Assembly: GCF_007671725.1 (NCBI RefSeq)
Contig: NZ_VCNM01000001.1
Span: 1,240,001 to 1,304,000 of the forward strand
Reading direction: 5' to 3'
Origin: Halorubrum depositum
Lineage (GTDB): Archaea > Halobacteriota > Halobacteria > Halobacteriales > Haloferacaceae
DNA: 64,000 nucleotides
The notes beneath the pieces were generated by a model, which searched no databases, was not told where the DNA came from, and saw only the letters and a program-made list of their open reading frames with translations. Shown here one piece after another: positions 1,193 to 14,787 of this stretch (position 1 is its first letter; each line of letters opens with the position of its first letter). The position numbers were made by a program, and so were the translations under genes.

Positions 1193-1672
1193 ATGGCGGA
1201 CTGTCCACTCGCCGACGAATGCCCCAGTTTCGACGAGCGAATCGAGGGGATGGGGTGTCAACACTACGGCAACAAGGGCGGCGCGGAGTGGTGTAACCAC
1301 TACGACATGCCCATCTACGAGCTGAAACAGCAGCCGGTCCAGCCCGGCGAACAGGTGATAGTCGAGGTCGACGACATCCACGAGAGCGGCGCGGGCGTCG
1401 GCCGCACCGACGACGGCTTCATCATCCTCGTCGACGGGCTACTCCCGCCGGCGCGCGCGGAGGTGCGGATTCACCGGGTGAAATCGAGCCACGCGACCGC
1501 CGAGGAGGTCGTCGAGCGCCTTCCAGAGGATCCGGACGCTGAAGACGAGGACGGCGACGACGCGGCCGACGCCGACGCGGACGGCGAGAGCGAGGACGAC
1601 GAGAGCGACCGGCGCCGCGACCGCCCGGACCGCGAACGGCTCGGGAGCCGCGAGAACTTCTGGGGCAAATAG
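1193..1672 (+). CDS. TRAM-domain protein; 3' end is the integration site
   Basis: A 159-residue protein. Four cysteines near the N terminus (residues 4, 10, 22, 34) may bind a metal. Residues about 49-108 form a TRAM domain (PGEQVIVEVDDIHESGAGVG, then GFIILVDGLLPPARAEVRI), a small RNA-binding beta-barrel found in tRNA-modification enzymes and as stand-alone proteins in archaea. The C-terminal third is a very acidic tail turning basic at the end. The last codons, TTC TGG GGC AAA TAG, fall in the attachment core of the integrated element; the right-hand copy at 9593-9601 would give Tyr/Phe-Trp-Gly-Lys then TGA, so integration leaves the protein end unchanged. A TTTACAA box lies about 30 nt upstream of the ATG. 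Confidence 0.85.
   Translation: MADCPLADECPSFDERIEGMGCQHYGNKGGAEWCNHYDMPIYELKQQPVQPGEQVIVEVDDIHESGAGVGRTDDGFIILVDGLLPPARAEVRIHRVKSSHATAEEVVERLPEDPDAEDEDGDDAADADADGESEDDESDRRRDRPDRERLGSRENFWGK
1660..1668 (+). other. attL core
   Basis: CTGGGGCAA at the end of the TRAM gene, identical to 9593-9601. It encodes the final Trp-Gly-Lys. The stop codon on this side (TAG) is supplied by the element. Confidence 0.85.
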
Positions 1673-1679
1673 GGCAGTG

Positions 1680-1700
1680 AGTGCGCATTTTGTGCGTACA
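1680..1700 (+). repeat. Left att-flanking arm repeat
   Basis: A 21-bp sequence starting 12 bp inside the left core. It is an imperfect inverted copy (17 of 21 positions match) of 9559-9579, which ends 13 bp before the right core. In the excised circle the two arms would flank the crossover core symmetrically, as expected for recombinase arm-type binding sites. Confidence 0.65.
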
Positions 1701-1738
1701 ACATTTCTGGCGAGTGAACACACTGGTTAGTTGAGCTA

Positions 1739-1748
1739 CATTTTTAAC
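1739..1748 (+). promoter_or_regulatory. TATA-like box of the left small-gene operon
   Basis: CATTTTTAAC is centred about 32 nt before the ATG at 1776, giving a near-leaderless transcript for the chain of small genes that follows. Confidence 0.5.
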
Positions 1749-1775
1749 ATCCCTGCGGTCGTACTGTAACCTGTA

Positions 1776-2045
1776 ATGTCTGATAGCGAGGAGTCTTCAG
1801 CGGGTAGCGACAGCACAACTCAAACCACCACAACAAACACCGTTGGAGGACAGGAACGCCCGAATAAGGTGAAACTGAAAGCCTGCGATTTGGAGGTCGA
1901 AGCCCAGAGTACAGAGATGGAAGCGGACGAGTTAGTCGAAGTGTTGTCGCCCGAAATGGAGTCGATTATGAAGCACCATTTAGCGGGCGAATACGAAGTC
2001 ATCGAACAGCGAGACCTGTTCGCCGCCCTATTCGGAGAGCAATAA
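1776..2045 (+). CDS. Small acidic orphan protein
   Basis: An 89-residue protein and the first gene of the element's left operon. Residues 1-27 are a Ser/Thr-rich, presumably disordered leader (MSDSEESSAGSDSTTQTTTT). The rest (KVKLKACDLEVEAQSTEM and the C-terminal HHLAGEYEVIEQRDLFAALF) looks like a small folded domain with strands followed by helices. No known family is recognised. The stop codon overlaps the next start (TAATG), so it is translationally coupled to the membrane protein downstream. A TATA-like box sits about 32 nt upstream. The coupling and clean coding frame make it likely real; its function is unknown. Confidence 0.6.
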   Translation: MSDSEESSAGSDSTTQTTTTNTVGGQERPNKVKLKACDLEVEAQSTEMEADELVEVLSPEMESIMKHHLAGEYEVIEQRDLFAALFGEQ

Positions 2046-2266
2046 TGGGAGTGCTGGCGTGGGCTGTCGTCATCGGTTGGACTGCTGTATTTGGGTGCGT
2101 GTACTGGTTTCTGGGAAGCAAAGGATGGATGGCATACTATCTGCTGATGGCTTCGCTCACAGGGTATTATAGCGTAGTTGCTGGGTCGTCGGTGGCTACG
2201 GGTATCGTGATGGGTTGGATGCTTCTCCCGTTCGGCGTTGGTGCCGCAGGAGGTGTCTTCGGATAA
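2045..2266 (+). CDS. Small membrane protein
   Basis: A 73-residue, strongly hydrophobic protein with two or three predicted membrane segments: about residues 3-22 (LAWAVVIGWTAVFGCVYWFL), 28-48, and 52-72 ending in a Gly-rich stretch (GVGAAGGVFG). It has almost no charged residues. Its start overlaps the previous stop and its own stop overlaps the next start (both TAATG), placing it in the middle of a tightly coupled operon. Small hydrophobic proteins in such elements can be holin-like, viral membrane or toxin proteins, but nothing in the sequence singles out one of these. Confidence 0.6.
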   Translation: MGVLAWAVVIGWTAVFGCVYWFLGSKGWMAYYLLMASLTGYYSVVAGSSVATGIVMGWMLLPFGVGAAGGVFG

Positions 2267-2625
2267 TGCTTCGGCGGGCATTTCTCGGAGGTGTTGGAGT
2301 TGCGTTTACAGGAGGGTTTGTGAAGTTTCTGAGCGAATGGTACCAACGCCCTGAATCTGAGTATGTGGAGTCGCTGTCGTTGGGAGTTCTCTCCGACACA
2401 ATTCAAATTCGGTTCGTTCACAATGAAGAGAAACGCAGGGAGGTAGTCCAGTATCTCACATACAACGAGCAGAGCGGTGAGATTGACTCTGTTAAGATGA
2501 TGGATGCCCGTTTACCCAGACAGTCGATAGACGCACCAGAGAATCCCGATAAATACCGTTTTGTATTGCTGGGAGAAGAGCAGAATGAATTGGAAAACTT
2601 CGAGTTAGATTTCGGCGTGATTTGA
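2266..2625 (+). CDS. Orphan protein with twin-Arg, signal-like N terminus
   Basis: A 119-residue protein using the ATG at 2266, chosen because it overlaps the preceding stop (TAATG); an earlier in-frame ATG at 2215 would overlap the membrane protein. The N terminus (MLRRAFLGGVGVAFTGGFV) has a twin-arginine pair and a short hydrophobic stretch, so it may be exported or membrane-anchored by the Tat route. The remainder (LGVLSDTIQIRFVHNEEKRR and onward) looks like a beta-rich soluble domain. No family is recognised. It ends with TGATG coupling to the next gene. Confidence 0.55.
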   Translation: MLRRAFLGGVGVAFTGGFVKFLSEWYQRPESEYVESLSLGVLSDTIQIRFVHNEEKRREVVQYLTYNEQSGEIDSVKMMDARLPRQSIDAPENPDKYRFVLLGEEQNELENFELDFGVI

Positions 2626-2885
2626 TGCCAGAGCCTGTAATAAGCGAATATCAACGGTGGCGGTGTGGCGACCAGAGAGTCATCTTAGGCATACGCAACG
2701 GGATAGCGATGTTCTCCCGTTGTTCGTGTAGTAGGGAGAACAGAGCGACAGAGATAGAACTGGACTCTGGAGATGTCTGGTCATATGAGACTTCGTACTG
2801 TGTACACACCTATACCACCCTTGCCCACTACTACGCAGAGTTCGCCAGCGGAGACCTTGCGACAGAGAGAGTGGATACTCGATGA
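2625..2885 (+). CDS. Small orphan protein
   Basis: An 86-residue protein starting at the ATG at 2625, which overlaps the previous stop (TGATG). It contains several cysteines (RCG, SRCSCSREN, YCVH) and no obvious membrane segment. The product may be a small metal-binding or disulfide protein, but no family is recognised. Its stop overlaps an ATG at 2882 that opens a 28-codon frame, continuing the chain of overlapping small genes. It is supported mainly by the operon-like coupling. Confidence 0.45.
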   Translation: MPEPVISEYQRWRCGDQRVILGIRNGIAMFSRCSCSRENRATEIELDSGDVWSYETSYCVHTYTTLAHYYAEFASGDLATERVDTR

Positions 2886-2968
2886 ACAGAAGAAAACTGA
2901 TTGAAACGGCGTCAGGGGTAGGGTTCAGTATGATTTCAGCGGCTCCAGACGAACAGAGAGAGGATTGA
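2882..2968 (+). CDS. 28-residue signal-peptide-like micro-ORF
   Basis: The frame reads MNRRKLIETASGVGFSMISA and then eight more residues before TGA. MNRRK followed by a short hydrophobic run resembles the Tat signals of the two lipoproteins further right (MNRRQYL...), but there is no lipobox cysteine and no mature protein. It starts inside the stop of the previous gene (ATGA). It could be the remnant of a truncated lipoprotein gene or a genuine micropeptide. Confidence 0.3.
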   Translation: MNRRKLIETASGVGFSMISAAPDEQRED

Positions 2969-3067
2969 GACATATCATTGTATTGAGCGTCTATCTTCTG
3001 CTCCCCCGTCAGTTATTGCCCTCTATTGTCGCCTGTGTGCGTGTTCTCAGGTATTCTCTCGGTGGAG

Positions 3068-3077
3068 GTTTTTAACC
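3068..3077 (+). promoter_or_regulatory. TATA-like box of the PIN-like gene
   Basis: GTTTTTAACC is centred about 28 nt before the ATG at 3100, so transcription would begin at or next to the start codon. Confidence 0.55.
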
Positions 3078-3099
3078 GAGGACGACGAAGTAAGAGTCT

Positions 3100-3870
3100 A
3101 TGACCGATTCTCAAAAGGTCAAGCGAGTCATACTGGACACCAACTACTGGATAGATTTCGTTGAAGAATACCCAGAGCGAACACCAAGGTTCCTTGAAGC
3201 GATTGACAATGACGATGTGAAGGTGTACATTACATTCGGGAATTTCATCGACCTGATTCGGTCTAATGAACAAGAAGGGCTTACCAAACTGATTCTCGGT
3301 GCGTCCGACCATTGTATTCCATCAACGATTCTTCGTGAGGAGTGTGTGATTTCAAATAATATTATTGACCTCATCCCTAGCGAGAATCATCGCCGAAATT
3401 TTTCTCAGGTGACCCAAGATATGGACACAGTTGAGACCTTCCAAGAAATTATCAAACACGCAGGTTGGAGTGCCTCAGATTGGTATTATTCAAATATAAA
3501 ACGAGATAGAGAGTTGTTGGAAGAACACGGGTATGATGAACTCAAGAACGGCGGGTATAAGGAATATCTCCAAAATGAACACGGGTCTCAGTATAATTCA
3601 CACGGAGTGGAGACAGTTTCAGATGTGAGGCACGAGGTCTTCCTTCAGCGGTTGAGAGTCATGACTCTGAATGAAAATATACGGGAGCAGGATGTTGCCG
3701 ACTTAGAAACTTGTACTCAAGCAATCGCTTCAGAGTGTAATATGCTGTTGATAGAGAAAAAGTGGGTAAATGTGGATTTGATTCAGAAGACAATACGAAA
3801 CCTTGATTCTGAGAAAGATATGACAGTGTACAAAGACTTCGAGAAGTTCCTCTCTGATTTGAAGCAGTAG
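3100..3870 (+). CDS. PIN-like domain protein (putative ribonuclease)
   Basis: A 256-residue protein. The N terminus (VKRVILDTNYWIDFVEEYP) has the hydrophobic strand followed by Asp13 typical of PIN-domain RNases, and a later segment (DLETCTQAIASECNMLLIEK) matches the second acidic site and following strand. The middle, roughly residues 80-190, is helical and charged. PIN proteins cut RNA in toxin-antitoxin systems and in defence. This one is larger than usual VapC toxins (about 130 residues) and no small antitoxin gene is next to it. It has its own leaderless-type promoter and low GC. It could be a defence cargo gene or a lone effector; the domain call is moderate. Confidence 0.6.
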   Translation: MTDSQKVKRVILDTNYWIDFVEEYPERTPRFLEAIDNDDVKVYITFGNFIDLIRSNEQEGLTKLILGASDHCIPSTILREECVISNNIIDLIPSENHRRNFSQVTQDMDTVETFQEIIKHAGWSASDWYYSNIKRDRELLEEHGYDELKNGGYKEYLQNEHGSQYNSHGVETVSDVRHEVFLQRLRVMTLNENIREQDVADLETCTQAIASECNMLLIEKKWVNVDLIQKTIRNLDSEKDMTVYKDFEKFLSDLKQ

Positions 3871-3873
3871 TTG

Positions 3874-4479
3874 TTACAGGCTCACAACCGTCTCAAATTC
3901 GAAGGTGACCTCACCGTCTGGCTCAGAACCGAACACCCCTGAGTTGTCGAATATGAACCGATGGTCTCCTTCAGGTAGTTGACCAGATATTGTGGTCTCA
4001 GAAACGCCTTCCTCGTAGTATCCGTCGTAAGTTACTGGTTGTTCTTCACCTCGATAGCGGTCAAACTCGTCAGCACTCATCCCGAGAATATCGATCTCTC
4101 CGCCGCCTTGGACTGACACACTAATTTCAAGATTGTATGTTCGCTGGAATTGTGCCTGCCGAACTGCGTATTGTCCTTCTCCGAGGGTTGCCTCACCTGT
4201 TACTGTTGCTGAGGTCTCGTCGTCTGTCTCTTCAAGGTTTGACCACGGGTCAGGGACATACTCGTGGGTTGGCTCAGGTTCGGTCTCCCCATCTGAAGTA
4301 TCGTCGTTCGTGGAACCGCCATTTGTTCCATTTGTGGATTCATCTTCAGAGTCACTATCAGTTCCACCCTCAGGGTCGGTCTCCTCGCCACCGTTCCCTT
4401 CACTCGTGTCTCCCGAACACCCTGCTAATGTGATGACAGAACTGGCTCCAATTGTTGTGAGGTACTGTCTGCGATTCAT
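3874..4479 (-). CDS. Tat lipoprotein
   Basis: A 201-residue secreted lipoprotein. It begins MNRRQYLTTIGASSVITLAG with Cys21 completing the lipobox, a haloarchaeal Tat lipoprotein signal. Residues about 22-80 are a low-complexity linker rich in Glu, Asp, Ser, Gly and Thr. The C-terminal domain, from about residue 90, is beta-rich (YNLEISVSVQGGGEIDILGM, and GDHRFIFDNSG) and resembles jelly-roll domains that bind ligands or membranes, but no family is assigned. It ends 3 nt from the convergent PIN-like gene and lies 9 nt downstream of a second lipoprotein with the same signal sequence, so the two are likely one operon and may be paralogues by signal exchange. Confidence 0.75.
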   Translation of the reverse strand: MNRRQYLTTIGASSVITLAGCSGDTSEGNGGEETDPEGGTDSDSEDESTNGTNGGSTNDDTSDGETEPEPTHEYVPDPWSNLEETDDETSATVTGEATLGEGQYAVRQAQFQRTYNLEISVSVQGGGEIDILGMSADEFDRYRGEEQPVTYDGYYEEGVSETTISGQLPEGDHRFIFDNSGVFGSEPDGEVTFEFETVVSL

Positions 4480-4488
4480 TCTACCACA

Positions 4489-4986
4489 TCAATTGTCAGG
4501 CGGGTAGTTGAACTCATCATACTCATATGTCTCTTCGTATTCAGTTAGTTCTTCGTCTCGTGTTGAAATGGTGATGTCGTAGTTAGTGATTTGGTCGTAG
4601 TGGTCTGGTGTTATATCCACGAGACCCATGTCATCTGTTTCAGTGGTTTCTGCGGGAAGGTCTCCTATTGTCAAACTCCCATCGTCGATTCGCTCATTCT
4701 CGATATACACATTGGCGTTGAATCTGATTAGTTCGAGGGTGATGTCGCTCACATTCTCGACTGTAACCTCTAATACCAACCCACTTCCAACTTGTGCGTG
4801 ACTGAATTCATGACTCTGGAGTTGAACAAAGTCTTCCAATCCGACGCTATCTTCTTCGTTTGAGTCCTCGTCATTTCCTCCGTTTGAATTCTCCTCAGAA
4901 CTCCCGCTGTCATCTGTCTCACCTGTACAGCCTGCCAGTCCAACTGTACTAACACCAATTGCTGTGAGGTACTGTCTTCGATTCAT
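4489..4986 (-). CDS. Tat lipoprotein, FxLYD-like domain
   Basis: A 165-residue protein beginning MNRRQYLTAIGVSTVGLAG with lipobox Cys20, nearly identical in the signal to its downstream neighbour. A short acidic linker follows. From about residue 55 the mature part (SGLVLEVTVENVSDITLELI, then YIENERI and TETDDMGLVDI) resembles the FxLYD-type beta-sandwich common in haloarchaeal surface lipoproteins. It is the first gene of a two-gene operon with a TATA-like box at 5007-5014. It would be anchored on the outside of the cell membrane; the ligand or partner is unknown. Confidence 0.75.
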   Translation of the reverse strand: MNRRQYLTAIGVSTVGLAGCTGETDDSGSSEENSNGGNDEDSNEEDSVGLEDFVQLQSHEFSHAQVGSGLVLEVTVENVSDITLELIRFNANVYIENERIDDGSLTIGDLPAETTETDDMGLVDITPDHYDQITNYDITISTRDEELTEYEETYEYDEFNYPPDN

Positions 4987-5006
4987 ACCAGTTGCTAACC
5001 AGTTGA

Positions 5007-5014
5007 GTATAAAG
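5007..5014 (-). promoter_or_regulatory. TATA-like box of the lipoprotein operon
   Basis: On the minus strand this reads CTTTATAC, about 24 nt before the ATG at 4986. Confidence 0.5.
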
Positions 5015-5039
5015 AAGGTTTGTAATCTGACTTATCAGT

Positions 5040-5321
5040 TCAGAATTTCAATTTAACTTGGCTTTCGTGAAGCCCCAGTGTCTCACCAACTTTAAACTGA
5101 ACAGTATGCCCATTGACTTCCGACTCAATCCATCCTGAACTGACTTCATCCAGTAGGTTGTTTTTGACAGTTGCTTCTGTGTACACTCCATCTGATTCTG
5201 AGATATTGATGTCTTCAACTTCCAACATCTCTTCTCTGTATTTTCCATCTGGGAGACTGTTCCAAATGGCATTGTGGAGCAATCGTTTCACCTCGTCGTC
5301 GGTATGGCTTTGTGGTGCCAT
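5040..5321 (-). CDS. Small orphan protein
   Basis: A 93-residue protein starting MAPQSHTDDEVKRLLHNAIW. It has an N-terminal helix with Asp-Asp-Glu, then alternating strands (DGVYTEATVKNNLLDEVSSG and NGHTVQFKVGETLGL). No cysteines, membrane segment or signal are seen. A TATA-like CCTTTTTATCC lies about 28 nt upstream of the ATG, giving a leaderless transcript of its own. No family is recognised. It lies between the lipoprotein operon and the 206-residue orphan, all read on the minus strand but each apparently with its own promoter. Confidence 0.55.
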   Translation of the reverse strand: MAPQSHTDDEVKRLLHNAIWNSLPDGKYREEMLEVEDINISESDGVYTEATVKNNLLDEVSSGWIESEVNGHTVQFKVGETLGLHESQVKLKF

Positions 5322-5342
5322 ACCCCCGTCTGGATTGTGGTC

Positions 5343-5353
5343 GGATAAAAAGG
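5343..5353 (-). promoter_or_regulatory. TATA-like box
   Basis: The minus strand reads CCTTTTTATCC, centred about 27 nt before the ATG at 5321. Confidence 0.5.
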
Positions 5354-5391
5354 TCAGTCGGGTAATTCACTCAACTGGTTTCACAATGTAC

Positions 5392-6012
5392 TCAATACCA
5401 ATAATTCGACTCTACTATCTTATTAACAGTTGTTGGAGACAGACTGGAACTCTTATACGCTTCATAGATTCCACCATCAGTATAGAGGATATACTGGTAC
5501 CCTCTTGTTTGATACACTTCAAGAACGGAGTCATCATCTGGAGAAGAAAATGTACTATCTGGTGTCTTATGCTCCGCTAATCCTCGAAGAAGGGCACAAT
5601 CAACCTCTTCACAACCTGTTTCAAGATATTCTCTCAGTTCTTCTTGTGCTTTCTTCTCAGCCATCTCCGTAAATACATCATAGAGATGGTCAATCCCCAT
5701 CTTATCTGTAATTTTGGAGTCATTGAGTTGGTTTTTGAGGTTGGCAATAACGCTATCTTCCGCATACACCAGAATGCCATCTAACGAGTTGATTCCATCG
5801 TGGGTGAATTCTATGACCACTTGCGTCGGAATATCTCGTACAGAGACCTCTCCAACCTGTGTGATTCTCTCAGGAATATCCTGTCTATCTACACCATAAA
5901 TTGTAATAATAATTATATTATTCTTGATGCCCTCCTCAGACACTGTAACTGCCATTGGATGCTGTTTAATAATCTTCTCAACCAAATTTTGGATACATGA
6001 TATTTCATTCAT
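5392..6012 (-). CDS. Orphan protein of the element
   Basis: A 206-residue soluble protein. The N-terminal half (IIIITIYGVDRQDIPERITQ and TQVVIEFTHDGI) shows alternating strands and helices. A central helical stretch (FTEMAEKKAQEELREYLE) is followed by a C-terminal segment with aromatic residues (YQTRGYQYILYTDGGIYEAY). Codon use is strongly AT-biased, more so than its neighbours. No family is recognised. The ATG at 6012 is preceded by a good TATA-like box about 30 nt away. It appears to be cargo of the integrated element; function is unknown. Confidence 0.6.
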   Translation of the reverse strand: MNEISCIQNLVEKIIKQHPMAVTVSEEGIKNNIIIITIYGVDRQDIPERITQVGEVSVRDIPTQVVIEFTHDGINSLDGILVYAEDSVIANLKNQLNDSKITDKMGIDHLYDVFTEMAEKKAQEELREYLETGCEEVDCALLRGLAEHKTPDSTFSSPDDDSVLEVYQTRGYQYILYTDGGIYEAYKSSSLSPTTVNKIVESNYWY

Positions 6013-6036
6013 GTCGACCCATTTGTAGGTAAAGAA

Positions 6037-6047
6037 CCATATAAATT
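6037..6047 (-). promoter_or_regulatory. TATA-like box
   Basis: The minus strand reads AATTTATATGG, centred about 30 nt before the ATG at 6012. Confidence 0.5.
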
Positions 6048-6371
6048 TTTCGGATTGGAGTTGGATGATTAGAGAATATACTGGAGATTCTTGAGTCTAT
6101 TCTAATAACAGAGGCTAAGAGACTTAACACACAGAAGTAGTTCTAATTTGTTCGAAATGGTAGCATATAGAGACAAGTCGAGTTGAGTTTGGTCTCTCTA
6201 TCCTCTCAGTCTAAATCCTCTGAATTCCCACCAATATTGGACATATGAAATTGAGTAGAAAATTAGCAGGTGTGATAGTCGGGGTGATTCTAAGACGCAC
6301 CTACAGTCATTGACACACTTCCACATGAAACTGGGTTCTATCCATCTGGCTCGGGACTCCAGTAGAGAGAT

Positions 6372-6392
6372 TCTCTCCCCTGTGGGGAGAGA
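6372..6392. repeat. GC-rich hairpin (9-bp stem, 3-nt loop)
   Basis: TCTCTCCCC, loop TGT, GGGGAGAGA. It stands out in an AT-rich stretch. It could be a transcription terminator, a replication structure or a protein-binding site. Confidence 0.6.
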
Positions 6393-6432
6393 TATCTCGG
6401 AGCCTGTCGGAGACGCCACTATTCACTGGGAT

Positions 6433-6467
6433 TTAGTAGGTGAAAATTAGTAGGTGATTTAGTAGGT
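6433..6467 (+). repeat. Three direct repeats of TTAGTAGGT
   Basis: Copies start at 6433, 6447 and 6459, spaced 14 and 12 bp apart, in an AT-rich stretch just beyond the 3' end of the 317-residue RHH-like protein gene. They look like iterons (tandem protein-binding sites). Confidence 0.6.
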
Positions 6468-6563
6468 TTTACACAGGGTGTCGATTAGAATCTGGAATCT
6501 CATTCATTAAACTCATCTCGTAGCACAGCGAGTCGATTTGACAAAAAGAAAAGCGAATATAGT

Positions 6564-7517
6564 TCAGACTGCGTCGTCTTCAATATCATCGAGGTAATCA
6601 CCTAACTCATCCACAGGCGACACATCCACACCCTGCGGCTCGTATGTGTCATAAACTGTCTCGATTGATTCTCGGATTTTCTCGGTATGGTCTTTGTCGG
6701 GTTTCCGCTTCAACTCGAAGTAATCCATCCATTTTTGAGACCACTCTTCGAGGTCGGCTTCGATGAGTTTCAGAGCCTCCTCGTTGGACGGCTCGTAATA
6801 CCCCCTTGCTCGTCGCTCTATATCGATACCTCTGAGTTGTCCTGTAAACGGGTTAACAGTCGCATTAAGACGCTCTCGAACCTTATCTGCGTAATTGGAC
6901 AGAGTTCGCTCTCCTACATCTGTATACTTGGTTACTTCGTTGTCAACGACAGCATCGATAAGTCCCGTATGATATACATCATCTAATTGGTCTCGTAGCA
7001 GGATTAACGCCAGCGGGACTGCTACCTTATCCGTTGCTGGGATTGTTAAATCATCAGGGATTTTGGCGGCATCAATGTCAGCATTATAGTTGCTGTGTAG
7101 TCGGTCTACCCAATCTGACTGCGTACCTGTGGATTTATCCACATACGCCTCTGCCTGTAATTCGAGAACCATCACATAGTCATAAATGGCTTTACTGAGG
7201 TACTGCCCGATTTTACGCTGTGAGTACACTCTACGAGCCTCTGCTCGGAACCTGTCTGCGAGGTCTTCTGGGCATCTGAAAGAGATTTCACTCGTCTCTC
7301 CACGAGTGTACGAATGAGGGTCGAGACGGTCTTCGGGAACATACTTAGAAGTTAATCTATGTTGGAGTACCTGTTGCGTTGGTGTTGGGTTAACTTTGAA
7401 CCTGATGACATCAATCAGAACAGCCTGCTTATACCCTCTACCGCCGTAATACTGCTCCGAATAGTTTACTAACGCTTCATACGATTCGTTCGAAATGGAA
7501 TATCCTAAGTGTTCCAT
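6564..7517 (-). CDS. RHH-like protein, candidate replication or partition protein
   Basis: A 317-residue protein, the largest orphan of the element. Residues about 75-116 (SEISFRCPEDLADRFRAEAR, then KIGQYLSKAIYDYV) look like a ribbon-helix-helix DNA-binding unit, and residues 5-40 (YSISNESYEALVNYSEQYYG) resemble another. The C-terminal two-thirds are helical and charged with no recognised catalytic motif. The gene lies next to the candidate origin (start at 7517, inverted repeats from 7631) and its 3' end faces the iteron-like repeats. A TATA-like box 28 nt upstream gives a leaderless transcript. By position it could be the replication initiator or a copy-control protein; that is inference. 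Confidence 0.6.
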   Translation of the reverse strand: MEHLGYSISNESYEALVNYSEQYYGGRGYKQAVLIDVIRFKVNPTPTQQVLQHRLTSKYVPEDRLDPHSYTRGETSEISFRCPEDLADRFRAEARRVYSQRKIGQYLSKAIYDYVMVLELQAEAYVDKSTGTQSDWVDRLHSNYNADIDAAKIPDDLTIPATDKVAVPLALILLRDQLDDVYHTGLIDAVVDNEVTKYTDVGERTLSNYADKVRERLNATVNPFTGQLRGIDIERRARGYYEPSNEEALKLIEADLEEWSQKWMDYFELKRKPDKDHTEKIRESIETVYDTYEPQGVDVSPVDELGDYLDDIEDDAV

Positions 7518-7538
7518 ATGTCAGTAAACGGATACCAA

Positions 7539-7548
7539 CCTTATAAGT
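7539..7548 (-). promoter_or_regulatory. TATA-like box of the 317-residue gene
   Basis: The minus strand reads ACTTATAAGG, centred about 27 nt before the ATG at 7517. Confidence 0.55.
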
Positions 7549-7630
7549 TTTACTGCGATATGTAAGCGAAGAAAAAGAGAAAATACCCGTCAAACCATAT
7601 ATACGGAGTATATAGCACCACGCCCACCTA

Positions 7631-7745
7631 AAGCGGAGATATTTTTCGAGTTATTATTCTGAGATGCCTCATTTCTGAGAGTAAGCGAGCAGGGACGGAG
7701 AAACACCACTCTCATTTTCAGATGTTCCGATTTCAGGAGTTTCAG
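7631..7745 (+). repeat. Left arm of a long inverted repeat
   Basis: The outer 30 nt (7631-7660) are a perfect reverse complement of 8012-8041. Further matches stay in register towards the centre: 7671-7681 with 7991-8001, 7727-7733 with 7939-7945, and 7739-7745 with 7927-7933. Confidence 0.85.
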
Positions 7746-7926
7746 GCGTTTGTCTCGCCGCTCTCACTGGAGTTAAGAGAGATTGCGGAGGGTCTCCCGA
7801 ACCTTCCACTCACATAATGAAGTCAAAAGGAACTATACTATACTACTATACTATAATATGTAAGTTGTTTGTTGTTGTTGTTGTTGTTTGTTGTTTATTT
7901 TTCTTAGTGAGTTACTCGCCGAAACT

Positions 7927-8041
7927 CTGAAACCTCTAAAATCGGTGCCTCTCAGAAAATCACCCCCTATTCATCGTCTTCGCTCTAAGGCTCTCAGAAA
8001 TAACCCCGTGAAGAATAATAACTCGAAAAATATCTCCGCTT
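7927..8041 (-). repeat. Right arm of a long inverted repeat
   Basis: Mirror of 7631-7745. Its perfect outer 30 nt (8012-8041) overlap the start of the zinc-finger micro-ORF. Confidence 0.85.
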
Positions 8042-8157
8042 CCGTTCAACCACTGAACAAATTTAGATGGCTCTGGGTGTGTGAGTGTACCCGAGTTAAC
8101 CGTCAGAAAGACCCATACTGTACAAAATGCGGGACTGAACAGCCTACAACTTCCTGA
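8008..8157 (+). CDS. RanBP2-like zinc finger micro-protein
   Basis: A 49-residue frame from GTG at 8008 (an upstream TTG at 7888 is possible but would cross the origin core). The C-terminal half, WVCECTRVNRQKDPYCTKCG, matches W-x-C-x-C-x3-N-x6-C-x2-C, very close to the RanBP2-type zinc finger, which usually binds RNA or ubiquitin. Its N-terminal codons lie in the right arm of the inverted repeat, and its end overlaps the convergent recombinase gene by 14 nt. The well-kept finger argues that it is translated. It might regulate the origin or the recombinase; that is speculation. Confidence 0.5.
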   Translation: MKNNNSKNISASVQPLNKFRWLWVCECTRVNRQKDPYCTKCGTEQPTTS

Positions 8158-9130
8158 GTACTTCAGAGTTCGGGTCGAAGGTCTTCGGTCTCGCCTGTTC
8201 GTTCTGAATCTTTCTCGTTTCTTCTTTCAACCCGACATAGTGAGATGTAACTTCGACTGAGTGATGTCCCATAAGTTTTCTCAGTATTTCCAGATTCATA
8301 CCTGCGGCGGCTCGATGGGTCGCATATGCGTGTCGGAAGTGATGAGCGGTAGGGTAATGTAAATCTCTTCCAGCGGCGTCCTCTCCGTACACCTCGCCGA
8401 CTCCTGAACGGTCTGATACACGGCGTACTATCGTATTGATATAGTTCGGCTGTACCTGTTCAGAGTTCTGTGTAACCACCAAATACGGGCTATTTTGAGC
8501 CGTCTTATACGCATCTCGTCCTCCGTAGTCCAGCCACTCCCTCAACACAGGTTTAATTTCGGACGAGTATGGAATTTTGCGAACTCCATCCGACTTTTTG
8601 TTTCGTACTTTAATTAGGTCTTTATCCCTGTCTATCCGTTGAAGAGTGAGTTCAGAGAGTTCGGCTGTACGAACTCCAGTCTCCCAGAGCATCCGTATGA
8701 TTAGTTCTTCTCTGGTGGTCTCACAGGCTTCCACGATAACGACATACTCAGGAACCTCTACCCATTGTGTTTCTTCTCCTTTGTATTTCTCTGATAAACT
8801 CTCGGTGTTGTATTTGTGGTCTCGCAGTACCTCTGCTAAGTCTTCCTTGTCTGATTCGTTGAAGAAGTGGGCGAGGTTATCCGAGTGTTGTTTTATCGTG
8901 GTATCGTTGAGGTTACGCTCTTCCCGTAGGTATTCAACTAAATCGTACATATCCACGCTTTCGAGGTCTCTCCAGCCGTCTGCGTGGTCGTACCATTCTG
9001 TGAATTCGCCGAGAATATGGAACGCCTGTCGGTAGTTGGCTTCGGTGTTAGCGTTTCCTTCGTTTTTACTTTTAACTTCCTTTACGAATTCTCGGAGGTC
9101 AGGGTCTCGAAGCCGCTTTTTCTCACTCAT
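8144..9130 (-). CDS. Tyrosine recombinase (integrase)
   Basis: A 328-residue integrase. The N-terminal core-binding domain (about residues 10-110) contains the SAM-like helical unit. The catalytic domain shows Arg154 (TGVRTAEL), a probable Lys178/179 in the beta-hairpin (RNKKSDG), His263-x-x-Arg266 (AHHFRHAYATH), His289 (LMGHHSVEV) and the nucleophile Tyr298 (TSHYVG). All catalytic positions are present, so it is probably active. It would integrate and excise the element at the TRAM gene end. It is the second gene of an operon with the RHH regulator, overlapping it by 8 nt, and lies at the element edge as is typical. Confidence 0.93.
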   Translation of the reverse strand: MSEKKRLRDPDLREFVKEVKSKNEGNANTEANYRQAFHILGEFTEWYDHADGWRDLESVDMYDLVEYLREERNLNDTTIKQHSDNLAHFFNESDKEDLAEVLRDHKYNTESLSEKYKGEETQWVEVPEYVVIVEACETTREELIIRMLWETGVRTAELSELTLQRIDRDKDLIKVRNKKSDGVRKIPYSSEIKPVLREWLDYGGRDAYKTAQNSPYLVVTQNSEQVQPNYINTIVRRVSDRSGVGEVYGEDAAGRDLHYPTAHHFRHAYATHRAAAGMNLEILRKLMGHHSVEVTSHYVGLKEETRKIQNEQARPKTFDPNSEVLRKL

Positions 9131-9524
9131 TTAGTTCCTCTTTTATTTCTACCGTCTGTCGTCGGTTCGCTTCAGCGATAGCCTCAAAAGACAACTCTCG
9201 CATTTCTCCTGCTGGAACCTGCTCTTCCTCAACTCGCTCTCCTATCTCTTTGACATCCTCTATAATATTCATTACTTTTCCGAACTCACTCCGCATCGTG
9301 CTGATTATCTCCTTCTGCTCTTTGGTCAGTTCGCCGTCGTCTTTCTCGTTCTCTCTGGCGATAAACTCAGTCACCGAACGACGCACGAGTTCCGCTTTTG
9401 TGTTGACTTTTGGGTTCTCTTCGACAAATGATTCCCAGTTCTCGTTTGTTCCGAGGTCGAGGCGAATGGTGAACCGTAGTTCATTGTTCTCGTCTTCTCC
9501 TTCATCGTCTCCGTCGTCTGGCAT
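9123..9524 (-). CDS. Ribbon-helix-helix regulator, recombinase operon
   Basis: A 133-residue acidic protein. Residues 14-57 (NELRFTIRLDLGTNENWESF, then KAELVRRSVTEFIARE) form a ribbon-helix-helix DNA-binding domain; the C-terminal half is charged and helical, probably coiled coil, for oligomerisation. It precedes and overlaps the recombinase gene by 8 nt. Its leaderless promoter (9545-9556) lies within a few bases of the att arm repeat at 9559-9579, so a protein bound there could both repress the operon and influence recombination. It may act as a repressor or as an excision factor. Confidence 0.75.
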   Translation of the reverse strand: MPDDGDDEGEDENNELRFTIRLDLGTNENWESFVEENPKVNTKAELVRRSVTEFIARENEKDDGELTKEQKEIISTMRSEFGKVMNIIEDVKEIGERVEEEQVPAGEMRELSFEAIAEANRRQTVEIKEELNE

Positions 9525-9544
9525 ATGGTACTGTATTGTGGTAC

Positions 9545-9556
9545 TATTCTAATAAG
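9545..9556 (-). promoter_or_regulatory. TATA-like box of the RHH-recombinase operon
   Basis: The minus strand reads CTTATTAGAATA, centred about 27 nt before the ATG at 9524 and touching the right att arm. Confidence 0.5.
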
Positions 9557-9558
9557 TC

Positions 9559-9579
9559 TGTGCGTACAAAGTTCGCACT
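9559..9579 (-). repeat. Right att-flanking arm repeat
   Basis: Inverted partner of 1680-1700 (17 of 21 positions match), ending 13 bp before the right core. Confidence 0.65.
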
Positions 9580-9592
9580 GAGTAGCGTATTA

Positions 9593-9601
9593 CTGGGGCA
9601 A
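9593..9601 (+). other. attR core
   Basis: CTGGGGCAA followed by GTGAGCGCG. In frame this is TGG GGC AAG TGA, the original Trp-Gly-Lys-stop of the TRAM gene before integration. Confidence 0.85.
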
Positions 9602-9672
9602 GTGAGCGCGTCCCGGGGTGGCCCCACCCCACGGACAGTCCGGACGCCGCCGATCGGTCTCCCCCGACCGAA

Positions 9673-9719
9673 CCCCTCAGTTCGAGGGGGGTCGAAACCG
9701 CCGTTTTTTGAGCGAGCGT
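9673..9719 (+). terminator. Possible terminator displaced from the TRAM gene
   Basis: A short stem (CCCCTC with GAGGGG, 9673-9689) followed by six T residues at 9714-9719. Before integration this would have lain about 70 nt after the TRAM stop codon. Confidence 0.35.
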
Positions 9720-9734
9720 CCCCTCGCGACGAGT

Positions 9735-10238
9735 ATGGTCGCAGACGACGGTCCGGCCGACGCCGACGCGGTCGACGACGCCGAGGACGTCGACGCCGCC
9801 GAGCTGCTGGAACGGTCCGGGTTCGACGCCGACGAGAGCGTCCTCACCGACCGGCAGGCGGAGGTGCTCGCGCTCCGCGAGCGGGGGCTCCGCCAGTCCG
9901 ACATCGCCGACCGGCTCGGCACGTCGCGCGCGAACGTCTCCAGCGTCGAGGCCAGCGCCCGCGACAACGTCGAGCGGGCCCGCGAGACGGTCGCGTTCGC
10001 GGAGGCGCTCGCGGCGCCGGTCCGCGTGAAGATCGAGCCCGGCACGGACCTGTACGACGCCCCGAAGCGCGTGTACGACGCCTGCGACGACGCGGGCGTG
10101 AAGGTGAACCAGACCGCGCCGGATCTGATGAAGACGATCGGCGACCGCGCCGGCGACGCGGTCCACGGCCGCGAGGTGCGCAGCCGGCTGTTCGTCACCG
10201 TCGACGCGAACGGACAGATCCGGGTGCGACACCCGTGA
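9735..10238 (+). CDS. Tfx-family DNA-binding protein
   Basis: A 167-residue protein from the ATG at 9735 (an upstream frame to 9618 is poorly haloarchaeal in sequence). Residues about 38-75 (LTDRQAEVLALRERGLRQSD, then DRLGTSRANVSSVE) form the helix-turn-helix of Tfx proteins. The C-terminal domain (VRVKIEPGTDLYDAPKRVYD, then APDLMKTIGDRAGD) is the Tfx-specific part. Methanogen Tfx activates the fmdECB formylmethanofuran dehydrogenase operon under molybdate; in haloarchaea the target is not known. Two molybdopterin-type oxidoreductases lie further downstream, but a regulatory link is only a guess. Confidence 0.8.
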   Translation: MVADDGPADADAVDDAEDVDAAELLERSGFDADESVLTDRQAEVLALRERGLRQSDIADRLGTSRANVSSVEASARDNVERARETVAFAEALAAPVRVKIEPGTDLYDAPKRVYDACDDAGVKVNQTAPDLMKTIGDRAGDAVHGREVRSRLFVTVDANGQIRVRHP

Positions 10239-10314: not shown

Positions 10315-11343
10315 TCACTTCTCCAGCCGCTCCGCGACCCCGACGATCGTCGCGCCCGCGGTGACGGTCCCCTCGCGGGCGATCGAGTAGACGATCCCGT
10401 CGCGGTCGGCGGTCGCGGTCTGCAGCGGCTCGAACGTCGTCGGGTCGTGGACGACCCCGAGCCGCTCGCCCTCCGCGACCTCGTCGCCGACGGCGAGGTC
10501 GCGCTCCGGGGTGAACAGCCCCGATTCGGCGGCGTTCACGCGCCCGAGGTGGTTCCGCGCGACGGTGCCGTCCCACGACTCGGGCTCGCCGGGGAGCAGT
10601 CCCTCGCGACGGAGGACGCCGAGGGTCCCTTTTAATCCGTCCTCAACCGCCTCGGGGACGACCTCGCGGCTGTGCGCGAGCTCCGGCGTGATCGCGGGAA
10701 TACGCTCCCGAGTGGCGGCGACGCGGAGCTTGCCGGCGAAGCCGCGTTCGCTCCACTCCGCGTCGGCCTCGTCGCCCGCCGCCTCCGCGAGCAGGAGGTC
10801 GGTCCCGAACGCCTCCGCGAGCGACCGGCACTCCTCGTCGCCGCGCATATAGACGGTGTGAGTGAGCATCGCCGGCGACCCGGTGTGGAGGTCGACGATC
10901 GAGTCGGCCGCGCTCGCGAACCGCCAGAGGCGGCCCGCCATGCGCTCGTGGAGCGTCCCCCCGTCGTCGCCGGGCCAGCAGCGGTTCATGTTCGAGTGGG
11001 TCGCGTCGAGCGACTCCGGCGTCGTGTACGAGACCCGGTCGAACGTGAGCGGGTCGGCGACGGGGACCGTCACGAGGGTGCCGCCGAGGTCGGCCGCGTC
11101 CGCGGTCGTCGGATCCCCGCCCGTCAGCCGCTCGTGGAGCCGACGGAGGACCGCGGTCCCGTTCACCTCGCGGCCGTGCTGGGCGGCCTGCGCGTAGACG
11201 ACGGGGCCGCCGTCCGCCGGAACGTCGAGTTCGGGCCCGTCCGGCCCCTCCGCGAGGCCTCCCTCGCCGTAGACGTGGACGGTCGTGCGGACCGGGACGC
11301 CCGAGGGGAGCCTCGCGAGGACGAGTTCGCTGGCGTCGTGCAT
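10315..11343 (-). CDS. Succinylglutamate desuccinylase/aspartoacylase-family hydrolase
   Basis: A 342-residue M14-like zinc deacylase. The zinc motif AAQHGREVNG (HxxE) is at about residues 53-62 and a further ligand lies in IVDLHTGS. Other family signatures include SNMNRCWPGDD, where the family normally has an arginine/asparagine substrate-binding NxNR. The C-terminal part (VGDEVAEGERLGVVHDP, then GIVYSIAREGTVTAGA) is a biotinyl-like barrel. It probably hydrolyses an N-acyl amino acid or a related amide; the substrate is not defined by sequence. It faces the Tfx gene and is transcribed alone, with the ATG 120 nt from the divergent MBL gene. Confidence 0.8.
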   Translation of the reverse strand: MHDASELVLARLPSGVPVRTTVHVYGEGGLAEGPDGPELDVPADGGPVVYAQAAQHGREVNGTAVLRRLHERLTGGDPTTADAADLGGTLVTVPVADPLTFDRVSYTTPESLDATHSNMNRCWPGDDGGTLHERMAGRLWRFASAADSIVDLHTGSPAMLTHTVYMRGDEECRSLAEAFGTDLLLAEAAGDEADAEWSERGFAGKLRVAATRERIPAITPELAHSREVVPEAVEDGLKGTLGVLRREGLLPGEPESWDGTVARNHLGRVNAAESGLFTPERDLAVGDEVAEGERLGVVHDPTTFEPLQTATADRDGIVYSIAREGTVTAGATIVGVAERLEK

Positions 11344-11463
11344 ACCGGAGGGTCGGGCCTGAAGCGCTTATAAATCGGGGGCGCCGGGCGGCGTCGGCCG
11401 TCCCGCCGGGCGGCCCGCTCGACCGCGGACGCTAAGTCGGTGGGTCGACGAGACGGAGCCGAG

Positions 11464-12291
11464 ATGCGGGTCACGCTCCTCGGCACCGGCGACACGACGG
11501 GGACGCCGACCGTCGGCTGCGACTGCGACACCTGCGCCGCGGCCCGCGAGCGGGGAGTGTCGCGCTCGCGGTTCTCCGTCCACGTCGCCAACGAGCGCAC
11601 CGGCGAGTCGCTGCTCGTCGACTTCAGCCCGGACTTCAGACAGCAGTTCCTCGACGCCGACGTTCCCCTCCCCGACGCCGGGGTCGTGACGCACATCCAC
11701 TTCGACCACCTCGACGGGCTCGGCAACGTCTACCGGCTGGTCGACGGGCTCCCGGTCCACGCGCCGAACGAGACCGACCCCGCCACAGACGAGAGCGTCG
11801 CCGAGACGATCCGCGCGAAGTACGACTACCTGGAGGACCGGATCGGCGTCCACGCCCGCGAGCCGTTCGAGCCCTTCGAGACCTGCGGGCTCGAGATCCG
11901 GTTCGTCCCCGTCGACCACCCGCCCCTCCTCTGTTACGGCGTCGTCATCGAGGACCCGGAGACGGGCGCGACGCTCTCGCTGACCGGCGACACGAGCTAC
12001 GACGTGCCCGAGCGCTCCCGCGAGGCGCTCGCCGGGGCCGACCTCCTCTTGGCCGACGCCATCGTCCCCGCCTCGCTCTGCGAGCACCACCCGATGGGCG
12101 GGCGCCACGAGGGGCCCGACGGCGTCCCGCGCACGTTCGGCACGAAGCACATGACCCGGGAGGGGGCGCTCGCGCTCGCCGACGAGCTTGACGCCGACCG
12201 CACTCGGCTCGTCCACGTCGCGCACTACTACCCGCCGGACGAGGCGTTCGCGGAGCCGCTCGCGGTCGACGGTGAAGTGTACGAGCTATAG
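11464..12291 (+). CDS. Metallo-beta-lactamase-fold hydrolase (PhnP/PqqB type)
   Basis: A 275-residue protein. It begins MRVTLLGTGDTTGTPTVGCD with a CDCDTC cysteine cluster, as in PhnP-type phosphodiesterases where an extra zinc is bound. The catalytic zinc motif is THIHFDHLDG, a later Asp is in LSLTGDTSYD, and the last His lies in VHVAHYYPP. It likely cleaves a small phosphodiester or related ester. The ATG at 11464 is preferred because it opens the conserved strand. Its stop overlaps the end of the convergent MFS gene by 6 nt. Confidence 0.8.
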   Translation: MRVTLLGTGDTTGTPTVGCDCDTCAAARERGVSRSRFSVHVANERTGESLLVDFSPDFRQQFLDADVPLPDAGVVTHIHFDHLDGLGNVYRLVDGLPVHAPNETDPATDESVAETIRAKYDYLEDRIGVHAREPFEPFETCGLEIRFVPVDHPPLLCYGVVIEDPETGATLSLTGDTSYDVPERSREALAGADLLLADAIVPASLCEHHPMGGRHEGPDGVPRTFGTKHMTREGALALADELDADRTRLVHVAHYYPPDEAFAEPLAVDGEVYEL

Positions 12292-13485
12292 CGTCCCGGT
12301 TACACCGATCGTCCGCCTCCGAACGACCGCGAGCCCACCGATCGACAGCAGTCCGAGCAGCGCGCCGACGGCGAGCGTCGGGAACGCGAGGGAGTACCCC
12401 GACCGGTCGAGGACGAGTCCGAAGACGACGGGCGAGATCACGGTCGTCGTGAACCCGACCAGCGACTGAACGGAGAGGGCGGTTCCGACGTGCGCGTCGT
12501 CGACGACTTCCGTCACCATCGTCGATGTCGGCGCGCTGTCCATCGTTATGACGACGCCGTACGCGAGGACGATCGGGACGAGCGCGACGATCGGAAGATC
12601 CCCGAGCAATCCGAAGACGAGGCTCAGCGACGCGCTCGCCGTCAGTCCGATCGCGATCGTCCGCGGGCGTCCGATCCGATCGCTGAGCCAGCCGCCGGTC
12701 AGGTTTCCGACGCTGCCGAGCGCGATCATCGAGCCGACGACGAACCCCGGAAGCAGCGCCGACCCGGTGGCTGCGAACGCGGGTGCCGCCACGAGGAACG
12801 CCAAGAGCCAGTTCCGCGCGCCGAACAGCTCCCAGTTGTGCCAGGCGTAGACGCTGACCGTCAACAGGTACTCGCGGTTCCCCAACACCGAGCGATCGAA
12901 CCCTGCACCGCCGCCCTCCGCCCGGTCGGGGTGATCGCGGGTCAATCCGAGCATGAACGGCGGCACGAACAGCGCACCGGCGCTCGTGGAAGCGATCGCG
13001 AGCCGCCAACTGACCGCGTCGGCGATCGCGGTCGAGAACACGAACGAGAGCCCGGACCCGAGCGAGAACGCGCCGATGTACAGCCCGAGCGCCCGGCCGC
13101 GCGCCGATTCGGGGAACCAATCCGTGACGAACCGCATCCCCGGGACGTAGACGCCGGCCATGAACAGGCCGGAGCAGAATCGAAGCCCCGTCCCCGCGAC
13201 GAACCCGTCCGCGACGCCGGCGAACAGGAGGCTCGGACCTCCGGCCCCGGCCGCTCCGACCGCGATCACCCACCGAGGCGAGTAGCGGTCCGCCAACCAG
13301 CCCGCGGGGACGATCGCCACGAGATAGCCCGCCTGGAACGCCCCGAAAATGATCCCGGCTTCGGTCCCCGAGAGACCCCACTCGTCGACGACGGACGGCA
13401 GGACGGCGGAGTAGTTGAACCAGACGAGGACCGAAAAGAACAGCGACGCCGCGGTCACGACGAGCACCCGGCGGCGTTCACGCAT
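12286..13485 (-). CDS. MFS transporter
   Basis: A 399-residue permease with about 12 membrane helices. The conserved loop between helices 2 and 3 is present (GWLADRYSPRW), and the second half repeats it (GGWLSDRIGRPR). I start at the ATG at 13485 (MRERRRVLVVTAASLFFS), which places the first helix right after a basic cytoplasmic stretch; the much longer open frame upstream overlaps the next gene. The sequence resembles nitrate/sugar-type MFS carriers in general, without a specific substrate signature. Its end overlaps the MBL hydrolase by 6 nt, convergent. Confidence 0.8.
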   Translation of the reverse strand: MRERRRVLVVTAASLFFSVLVWFNYSAVLPSVVDEWGLSGTEAGIIFGAFQAGYLVAIVPAGWLADRYSPRWVIAVGAAGAGGPSLLFAGVADGFVAGTGLRFCSGLFMAGVYVPGMRFVTDWFPESARGRALGLYIGAFSLGSGLSFVFSTAIADAVSWRLAIASTSAGALFVPPFMLGLTRDHPDRAEGGGAGFDRSVLGNREYLLTVSVYAWHNWELFGARNWLLAFLVAAPAFAATGSALLPGFVVGSMIALGSVGNLTGGWLSDRIGRPRTIAIGLTASASLSLVFGLLGDLPIVALVPIVLAYGVVITMDSAPTSTMVTEVVDDAHVGTALSVQSLVGFTTTVISPVVFGLVLDRSGYSLAFPTLAVGALLGLLSIGGLAVVRRRTIGVTGTL

Positions 13486-13618
13486 CCGTGTGAGGTCCTC
13501 CTCGACGGCGGCGATGGTTCTTTGGGTTCCGGCGATCGGTCTCCGCCCCGAGTGTGCGAACCGGAGTAGCGTCGACGGGCTGTACCCTTTTGCCTCGGTA
13601 GCACGTAGCCCGATCGAG

Positions 13619-14755
13619 ATGGGAACGGGGCTCGGCATCCGTGGGGCGCTCCGCGAGGCCGTCGACCGCCTCGAGCCCCCGCCGCGCGCGGTCGACTGGT
13701 CGCTGTTCGCGTTCGTCGCCGCGGAGGTCGTCACCGGGCTCGTCTCCTTCACCGTCGGCGTCCCCGAGGGGTGGCCCCTCTTTTGGCTCCACCGCTCGCT
13801 CGGGTTCGCCATCGTCGTCCTGCTCGCGTGGAAGCTCGCGCGCGTCCGGGGCCGGCTCACGGACCCGAGCCTGTGGCGCCGGTCGACGGCGCTGTCGGTC
13901 CTGACGCTCGTCGCCGCCCTGGGAGCCCTTTCGACCGGGATCGTCTGGGTCTTCGGGCTCGACGTGCGGCTCTCCTACTGGACGCTCCTCTCGGTCCACG
14001 TCGGGTTCGGACTGGTCCTGCTCCCGCTGGTGGCCGCGCACGCGACGACCCGGTTCCGGCTCCCGCGGCGGGTCGACTTCGAGCGCCGACGGACCGCGGT
14101 GCGGTACACGGTCCTGCTGGCCGCCGGCGCGGCGACCTATCGGCTCCAGCAGGGCGTCAACGACCTCCTCGACACGGCCGGCGCGGACCGGCGGTTTACC
14201 GGGTCACAGCCCCGCGAGGGCGAGGGGAACGGCGCGTTCCCGGTCACCTCGTGGGTCGCCGACGACCCCGACCCGATCGACCGAAAGGCGTACCGGCTGC
14301 GGGTCGAGGGGCTCGTGAGCGACCCCGTCGAACTGACCGCCGACGAGGTCGCGGCCGGCCACGAGACGGCGGCCCTGCTCGACTGCACGAGCGGCTGGTA
14401 CACGGTGCAGGAGTGGGGCGGGATCCGCGTCGGCGACCTGCTCGACGCGGCCGGGGGGTCGGAGGCGGCCGGCGGCTTCGGGGACGCCGGCGACTCGGAC
14501 CGCGAGCCGGCCTACGTCCGGTTCACGTCAGTGACGGGGTACCGCTGGAGCCTCCCGCTCGACGAGGCCGAGGACGCCCTGCTCGCCACCCACGTCGGCG
14601 GCGAGCGATTGTCCCACGGCCACGGCGCGCCCGCCCGGCTCGTCGCTCCCGATCGGAGGGGGTTCCAGTGGGTGAAGTGGGTGACGCGCGTGGAGGTGCG
14701 GGCGGAGTACGACCTCGGGCAGTGGGTGGTGACGCTGGTGAGCGGGTTCGAGTAG
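13619..14755 (+). CDS. Molybdopterin sulfite-oxidase-like protein with membrane domain
   Basis: A 378-residue fusion. Residues about 25-170 contain four membrane helices resembling a cytochrome b561/DUF4405-type unit (WPLFWLHRSLGFAIVVLLAW, and SVHVGFGLVLLPLVAAHATT, with candidate heme histidines). The C-terminal part (AYRLRVEGLVSDPVELTADE) is a sulfite-oxidase-family molybdopterin domain; its Mo-ligand cysteine is in LLDCTSGWYTVQEWGGI. The late GFQWVKWVTRVEV is a family signature. It probably passes electrons across the membrane; the substrate is uncertain. A second protein of similar design is at 24231-25778. Confidence 0.8.
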   Translation: MGTGLGIRGALREAVDRLEPPPRAVDWSLFAFVAAEVVTGLVSFTVGVPEGWPLFWLHRSLGFAIVVLLAWKLARVRGRLTDPSLWRRSTALSVLTLVAALGALSTGIVWVFGLDVRLSYWTLLSVHVGFGLVLLPLVAAHATTRFRLPRRVDFERRRTAVRYTVLLAAGAATYRLQQGVNDLLDTAGADRRFTGSQPREGEGNGAFPVTSWVADDPDPIDRKAYRLRVEGLVSDPVELTADEVAAGHETAALLDCTSGWYTVQEWGGIRVGDLLDAAGGSEAAGGFGDAGDSDREPAYVRFTSVTGYRWSLPLDEAEDALLATHVGGERLSHGHGAPARLVAPDRRGFQWVKWVTRVEVRAEYDLGQWVVTLVSGFE

Positions 14756-14787
14756 CCGGCTCTCCGGCGGCTCGAGTGGAGGACCGA

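Follow-up and report, generated by a model that had tools for sequence, protein, structure and literature searches.

Does the long inverted repeat beside an integrase gene in Halorubrum depositum mark a replication origin, and if so, to what kind of replicon would it belong? The repeat lies in a window of 64,000 nucleotides (contig NZ_VCNM01000001.1, positions 1,240,001–1,304,000; coordinates below are those of this window, unless another locus is named), where it fills part of a 626-bp gap with a tyrosine integrase gene on one side and a gene for a 317-aa protein on the other (Table 1). A preliminary description drawn from the sequence had proposed a likely plasmid origin, perhaps of an unstudied replicon type.

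The inverted repeat is far beyond chance. Its outer 30 bp are perfectly matched and complementarity continues inward in register, with gaps, to ~7783/7897; in gapped local alignment, one arm scored 98 against the reverse complement of the other, compared to best scores of 58 in 1000 mononucleotide shuffles and 59 in 200 dinucleotide shuffles (z = 10.2). The inner arms are significant without the outer 30 bp, as their local score of 50 was matched by one of 2000 shuffles and the score of their in-register 86-nt global alignment was reached by none of 2000. The AT-rich core, a candidate duplex-unwinding element, contains a CTATA tract (~7831–7857) and a GTT tract (~7864–7895). By nearest-neighbour energy, the 60- and 100-bp windows with the lowest stability in the surrounding element begin at 7814 and 7815, and the stretch 7814–7914, which overlaps the core, has the lowest stability of the whole element. 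The preliminary description of a perfect 30-bp outer arm, of matched arms in register and of a core with CTATA and GTT repeats is thus confirmed. The repeat also contains four exact copies of TTCTGAGA, two per arm and all pointing to the core, which the preliminary description had not noted. None of 1000 shuffles gave four copies of any four-letter 8-mer, and two of the copies face partner sequences without the box and so are not a product of arm pairing. The spacing of the two right-arm copies corresponds to about four helical turns.

Table 1. Features of the repeat, of the element that carries it and of related loci.
Feature	Position	Strand	Remarks
Left arm	7631..7783	no strand	Outer 30 bp (7631–7660) perfect; shuffle-tested alignment
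Right arm	7897..8041	no strand	Outer 30 bp (8012–8041) perfect; shuffle-tested alignment
AT-rich core, candidate duplex-unwinding element	7826..7905	no strand	76% A+T, 80 bp, low duplex stability
TTCTGAGA box 1, candidate iteron	7657..7664	+	
TTCTGAGA box 2	7673..7680	+	Part of TTTCTGAGAG
TTCTGAGA box 3	7950..7957	-	Part of TTTCTGAGAG; 42 bp from box 4
TTCTGAGA box 4	7992..7999	-	Part of TTTCTGAGAG
317-aa orphan gene, candidate origin-binding protein or initiator	6564..7517	-	Weak ribbon-helix-helix (RHH) signal at ~residues 72–125
TATA-like CTTATAAG	7540..7547	-	~25 bp upstream of 317-aa gene start, outside repeat
206-aa protein	5392..6012	-	Relatives in L026 (49%) and L017 (33%)
Tyrosine integrase, 328 aa	8144..9130	-	PF00589, E = 7.8e-27
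133-aa RHH-type protein	9123..9524	-	Module with integrase in related elements
att core CTGGGGCAA, left end	1660..1668	+	3' end of TRAM-domain gene (...ENFWGK-stop)
att core CTGGGGCAA, right end	9593..9601	+	
L026 gene block	RHH coding to ~5986; Int 5976–6947; 206-aa gene 9344–9967		700-bp gap; orphan gene 378 aa
Related insertion positions	L015 ~7155; L016 ~7540; L018 ~9620		

A short segment bounded by 30-bp terminal inverted repeats could also be a decayed transposon end pair or a MITE. However, the repeat is single-copy in the host genome, with no second match at up to three mismatches, no target-site duplication was found in its flanks, its inner arms are complementary too, and it has a positional analogue in another element (L026, see below); we consider this origin of the repeat highly improbable and have rejected it. 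Lying between the two genes, the repeat might alternatively encode a structured RNA or an attenuator, as it folds strongly as RNA on both strands (z = -8.2 and -7.4). That fold is, however, a consequence of the inverted repeat and is of near-equal strength on the two strands; Rfam matches were none above chance, the gene downstream has a TATA box of its own that lies outside the repeat, and a terminator-like site was looked for and not found. An Rfam RNA was accordingly rejected, and we regard an RNA function in general as very unlikely.

The repeat is part of an island of ~45% G+C (about 1.66–9.6 kb) within Halorubrum DNA of ~70% G+C. The 9-bp CTGGGGCAA occurs at both island ends, and the joined flanks are uninterrupted in many congeners (e.g. 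G279, with 87% identity over positions 4–332; in L031 the uninterrupted site reads TTCTGGGGCAAGTGA). Positions 1660–9592 therefore constitute an inserted element of ~7.93 kb. Judged from the sequence, the insertion rebuilds the final codons of the TRAM-domain gene that it targets, which preserves the end of the protein, and the att cores together with the uninterrupted site point to a mobile, circularisable element with defined ends, for which excision is predicted. Near these ends lie GTGCGCATTTTGTGCGTAC and GTGCGTACAAAGTTCGCAC (1680–1702 and 9560–9579), which are mutually inverted and are possibly arm-binding sites of the integrase.

The integrase family targets the 3' ends of protein-coding genes ending in -FWGK or -FWAK, namely the TRAM-domain gene here and aIF5B (infB) in L015, L016 and L018. 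Another Halorubrum carries an eroded element at the same TRAM-gene site (L035; G194:C41:69500–72600), which keeps the RHH gene and a lipoprotein gene and has lost the integrase, and the site looks like an insertion hotspot. An 89-aa gene (1776–2045) lies at the distal end of the element studied here, and a relative with 58% identity occupies the distal end of an element in G108, another Halorubrum (L038, reverse complement 8658–8849); this distal end is common to both elements, while their middles differ. A 256-aa protein (3100–3870) begins like a PIN-domain ribonuclease (VILDTNYWIDF) and has no family match; it is possibly a toxin or nuclease cargo, with no antitoxin visible.

The 317-aa protein next to the repeat is an orphan. 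It had no match in Pfam, NCBIfam or PADLOC and no relatives in 72,556 plasmids, 50,697 phage records, IMG/VR or GTDB contigs, nor, save for two sub-threshold matches, in 391 Halobacteria genomes or 52 genomes of the genus. Both of these come from the genus. The first lies within the open frame of an RHH-like chromosomal regulator, where the alignment is confined to residues 46–92; the second was not significant on re-checking. The protein had been described as RHH-like on first inspection, and what stands of this label is a faint resemblance: RHH_1 gave E = 0.11 against the isolated domain, short of the Pfam cutoff, and a strand-helix-helix is present in the low-confidence model of residues 1–132 predicted by AlphaFold without an alignment (pLDDT 58, and 40 for the whole protein). 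Foldseek found no significant fold match with these low-confidence models, which are too poor for its result to be meaningful. DNA binding by the protein is at most plausible on these grounds. As the protein is without relatives, its role, and with it the assignment of the gene as initiator, rests on position.

The distance of CTTATAAG from the ATG would be as expected for a leaderless haloarchaeal transcript, and the repeat lies ~90 bp upstream of this promoter. The arrangement would suit a non-replicative platform for the orphan protein, either an autoregulatory or a centromere-like (partition) site, and the weak RHH signal would suit it too, RHH proteins being repressors and centromere binders. 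Against this, the scan of the element proteins gave no ParA-type ATPase, and an operator would need far less than arms of ~150 nt with a perfect 30-bp outer repeat and a melting core. We consider such a platform unlikely.

A second, independent case of the same arrangement, which strengthens the observation, is found in element L026 of Halorubrum sp. JWXQ-INN 858. The gene order is the same (RHH, Int, inverted repeat, orphan gene, 206-aa gene), with a repeat in the same gap, a homologous 206-aa gene and a CTTATAAGG box before the orphan gene, which is the same TATA-like box as CTTATAAG. The arms of the L026 repeat are ~240 nt long and score 74, where shuffles reached no more than 59 (z = 6.3). 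When 220 AT-rich windows of 650 bp from eight loci were compared, the repeat described here (98) and that of L026 (70) ranked first and second, with inverted-repeat scores of at most 57 in the remainder. The L026 repeat differs in being longer and less perfect, without perfect outer arms, and its element differs in integrase subfamily and cargo. Its genes at 10460–16836 encode a DUF499 ATPase, a PglZ-like protein and a DUF1156/HmaB-like DNA methyltransferase, which are candidate defence cargo.

There is no detectable homology between the 317-aa protein and the 378-aa L026 protein found at the same place, and a homologue search with the latter found none. Homology between the two repeats was considered on the strength of a whole-region alignment (score 83, 0 of 300 shuffles) and is not claimed, the best p value in arm-by-arm comparison being 0.012 among 12 tests. 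With neither the repeats nor the orphan proteins detectably homologous, what recurs is therefore an arrangement and not an inherited sequence.

Neither repeat nor orphan gene occurs in six further loci, elements or relics, that have related RHH modules (in most cases with Int as well). Both are missing from the elements with integrases like the one here (L015, L016, L017 and L018), from the relic L035, which shares the att site, and from L038, whose integrase is 90% identical to that of L026 and whose RHH-Int block shares 80% DNA identity with the L026 block, homology stopping 7 bp past the integrase stop codon. Inverted repeats downstream of the L017 integrase (score 56–59) lie inside the shuffle range and overlap a coding region, and were rejected. 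Repeat and orphan gene are thus present or absent jointly, and it is therefore the orphan gene, not the integrase, whose distribution the repeat follows. In this small sample (two loci with both, six with neither), the pattern favours a cassette for replication (or maintenance) that is exchanged as a whole, and argues against both an accessory site of the integrase and an invertible switch.

Such a switch, in which the integrase next door would invert the DNA between the perfect 30-bp repeats, had seemed conceivable from the adjacent tyrosine recombinase gene and the perfection of the outer arms. The integrase core CTGGGGCAA is, however, absent from the arms, the interior is self-complementary, which is needless for a switch, the L026 counterpart lacks perfect outer arms, and related integrases occur without such a repeat. 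A switch is extremely improbable in our view and was likewise rejected.

Among characterised haloarchaeal replicons, the closest anatomical parallel is with the proven autonomously replicating sequence of the Halobacterium sp. NRC-1 chromosome. There an inverted repeat of 33 bp encloses AT-rich DNA of 189 bp next to orc7, and each of the three parts is required (PMC1906834, PMC1447603). Both loci combine a long, near-perfect repeat (30 bp here) around AT-rich DNA with a position directly upstream of a presumed binder gene. They differ in that the present locus has no ORB or G-string and no Orc1/Cdc6 gene, contains four TTCTGAGA boxes, is larger and belongs to a 7.9-kb integrative element. The best matches of ORB-derived patterns to the repeat had at least three mismatches, or there were none within five, and shuffles did equally well; Orc1/Cdc6-type boxes, which the preliminary description had not seen, are thus absent on a pattern search, and an ORB origin was rejected. 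The neighbours of the repeat are the 317-aa orphan and the tyrosine integrase, with no AAA+/Cdc6 match. By analogy, then, the repeat appears to have NRC-1-type origin anatomy yet would fall outside the Orc1/Cdc6-dependent class, because it has neither an ORB nor an orc/cdc6 gene.

Replication of pNRC100 needs an AT-rich region upstream (5') of repH (PMC1906834, PMC1447603), and here, similarly, AT-rich non-coding DNA precedes a gene that differs from those of other replicons. The repH papers cited describe no long inverted repeat there (PMC1906834, PMC1447603), and in the comparison made, with curated family models, the 317-aa protein matched none.

The main alternatives to a theta origin are the non-replicative binding platform discussed above and a rolling-circle or single-strand origin. 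In the latter, a hairpin in single-stranded DNA would be the nick site or the start of the complementary strand, and a hairpin role of this kind has been proposed for SNJ2 and for bacterial single-strand origins. The repeat strand does fold as DNA into a long hairpin (z = -7.6). Betapleolipoviruses have hairpin origins beside a Rep, of which Rep-Arvir is a DUF7845 endonuclease with a catalytic Tyr and a MarR-like domain (PMC13107129), and the element resembles SNJ2 and these viruses in that it is small, haloarchaeal and integrative, carries its integrase close to the putative replication module and has a hairpin-capable candidate origin beside a candidate initiator gene. However, the SNJ2 hairpin is short (~22 nt) and lies downstream of rep (PMC13107129), whereas the repeat here exceeds 400 bp and lies upstream of the gene. 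Among the element proteins scanned, there was no HUH/Tyr Rep match in Pfam, PHROG or NCBIfam, no Rep_trans match, and no DUF7845 (Rep-Arvir) match in Pfam, assuming that the model is present in the Pfam copy used. An origin of this type would, moreover, have no need of an AT-rich core in the loop, and we think it quite unlikely.

We return to theta replication, which would probably start from 7631–8041 as follows. The element would be excised at CTGGGGCAA and circularised, and the 317-aa protein would bind the outer 30-bp arms, the inward-facing TTCTGAGA boxes or both. The bound protein may then bring the two arms together by looping and strain open the core, where the MCM helicase and replisome of the host would load. 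Of the explanations tested, an origin best fits the position, the anatomy and the joint occurrence with a candidate initiator gene. That the region is an origin of some kind is fairly probable, and by analogy with known origins we lean, by a narrower measure, towards the specific reading that it is the replication origin of the element with the 317-aa protein as candidate initiator. Counting against an origin are that the 317-aa protein has no relatives, that neither this protein nor the repeat shows convincing sequence similarity to its L026 counterpart, that there are two cases in all and that integrated elements need not replicate independently.

The plasmid origin of the preliminary description therefore holds in part, in that anatomy, position and candidate gene fit, while the host is an integrated element and not a known plasmid. 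Its further suggestion of an unstudied replicon type is possible, as searches of plasmids, phages, IMG/VR, GTDB contigs and Halobacteria genomes turned up nothing related to the repeat or the 317-aa gene. The search of plasmids for the arms that it had proposed found no relative, and the repeat DNA gave only low-complexity CTATA matches and chance matches in plasmids, phages and the 391 Halobacteria genomes. We raise tentatively, as a possibility that we would not call probable, a new archaeal replicon class in which small haloarchaeal integrative elements carry exchangeable cassettes of repeat, melting core and initiator, each in its own unrelated version, with an initiator that would evolve fast and outside the known Rep families.

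In many archaeal plasmids and viruses, no replication gene can be recognised. The candidate cassette described here is compact (~1.6 kb), comprising one defined cis site and one candidate protein. If the origin reading is true, it would represent a type of initiator unlike Orc1/Cdc6, RepH, HUH or Rep-Arvir, and would provide a new origin for shuttle vectors.
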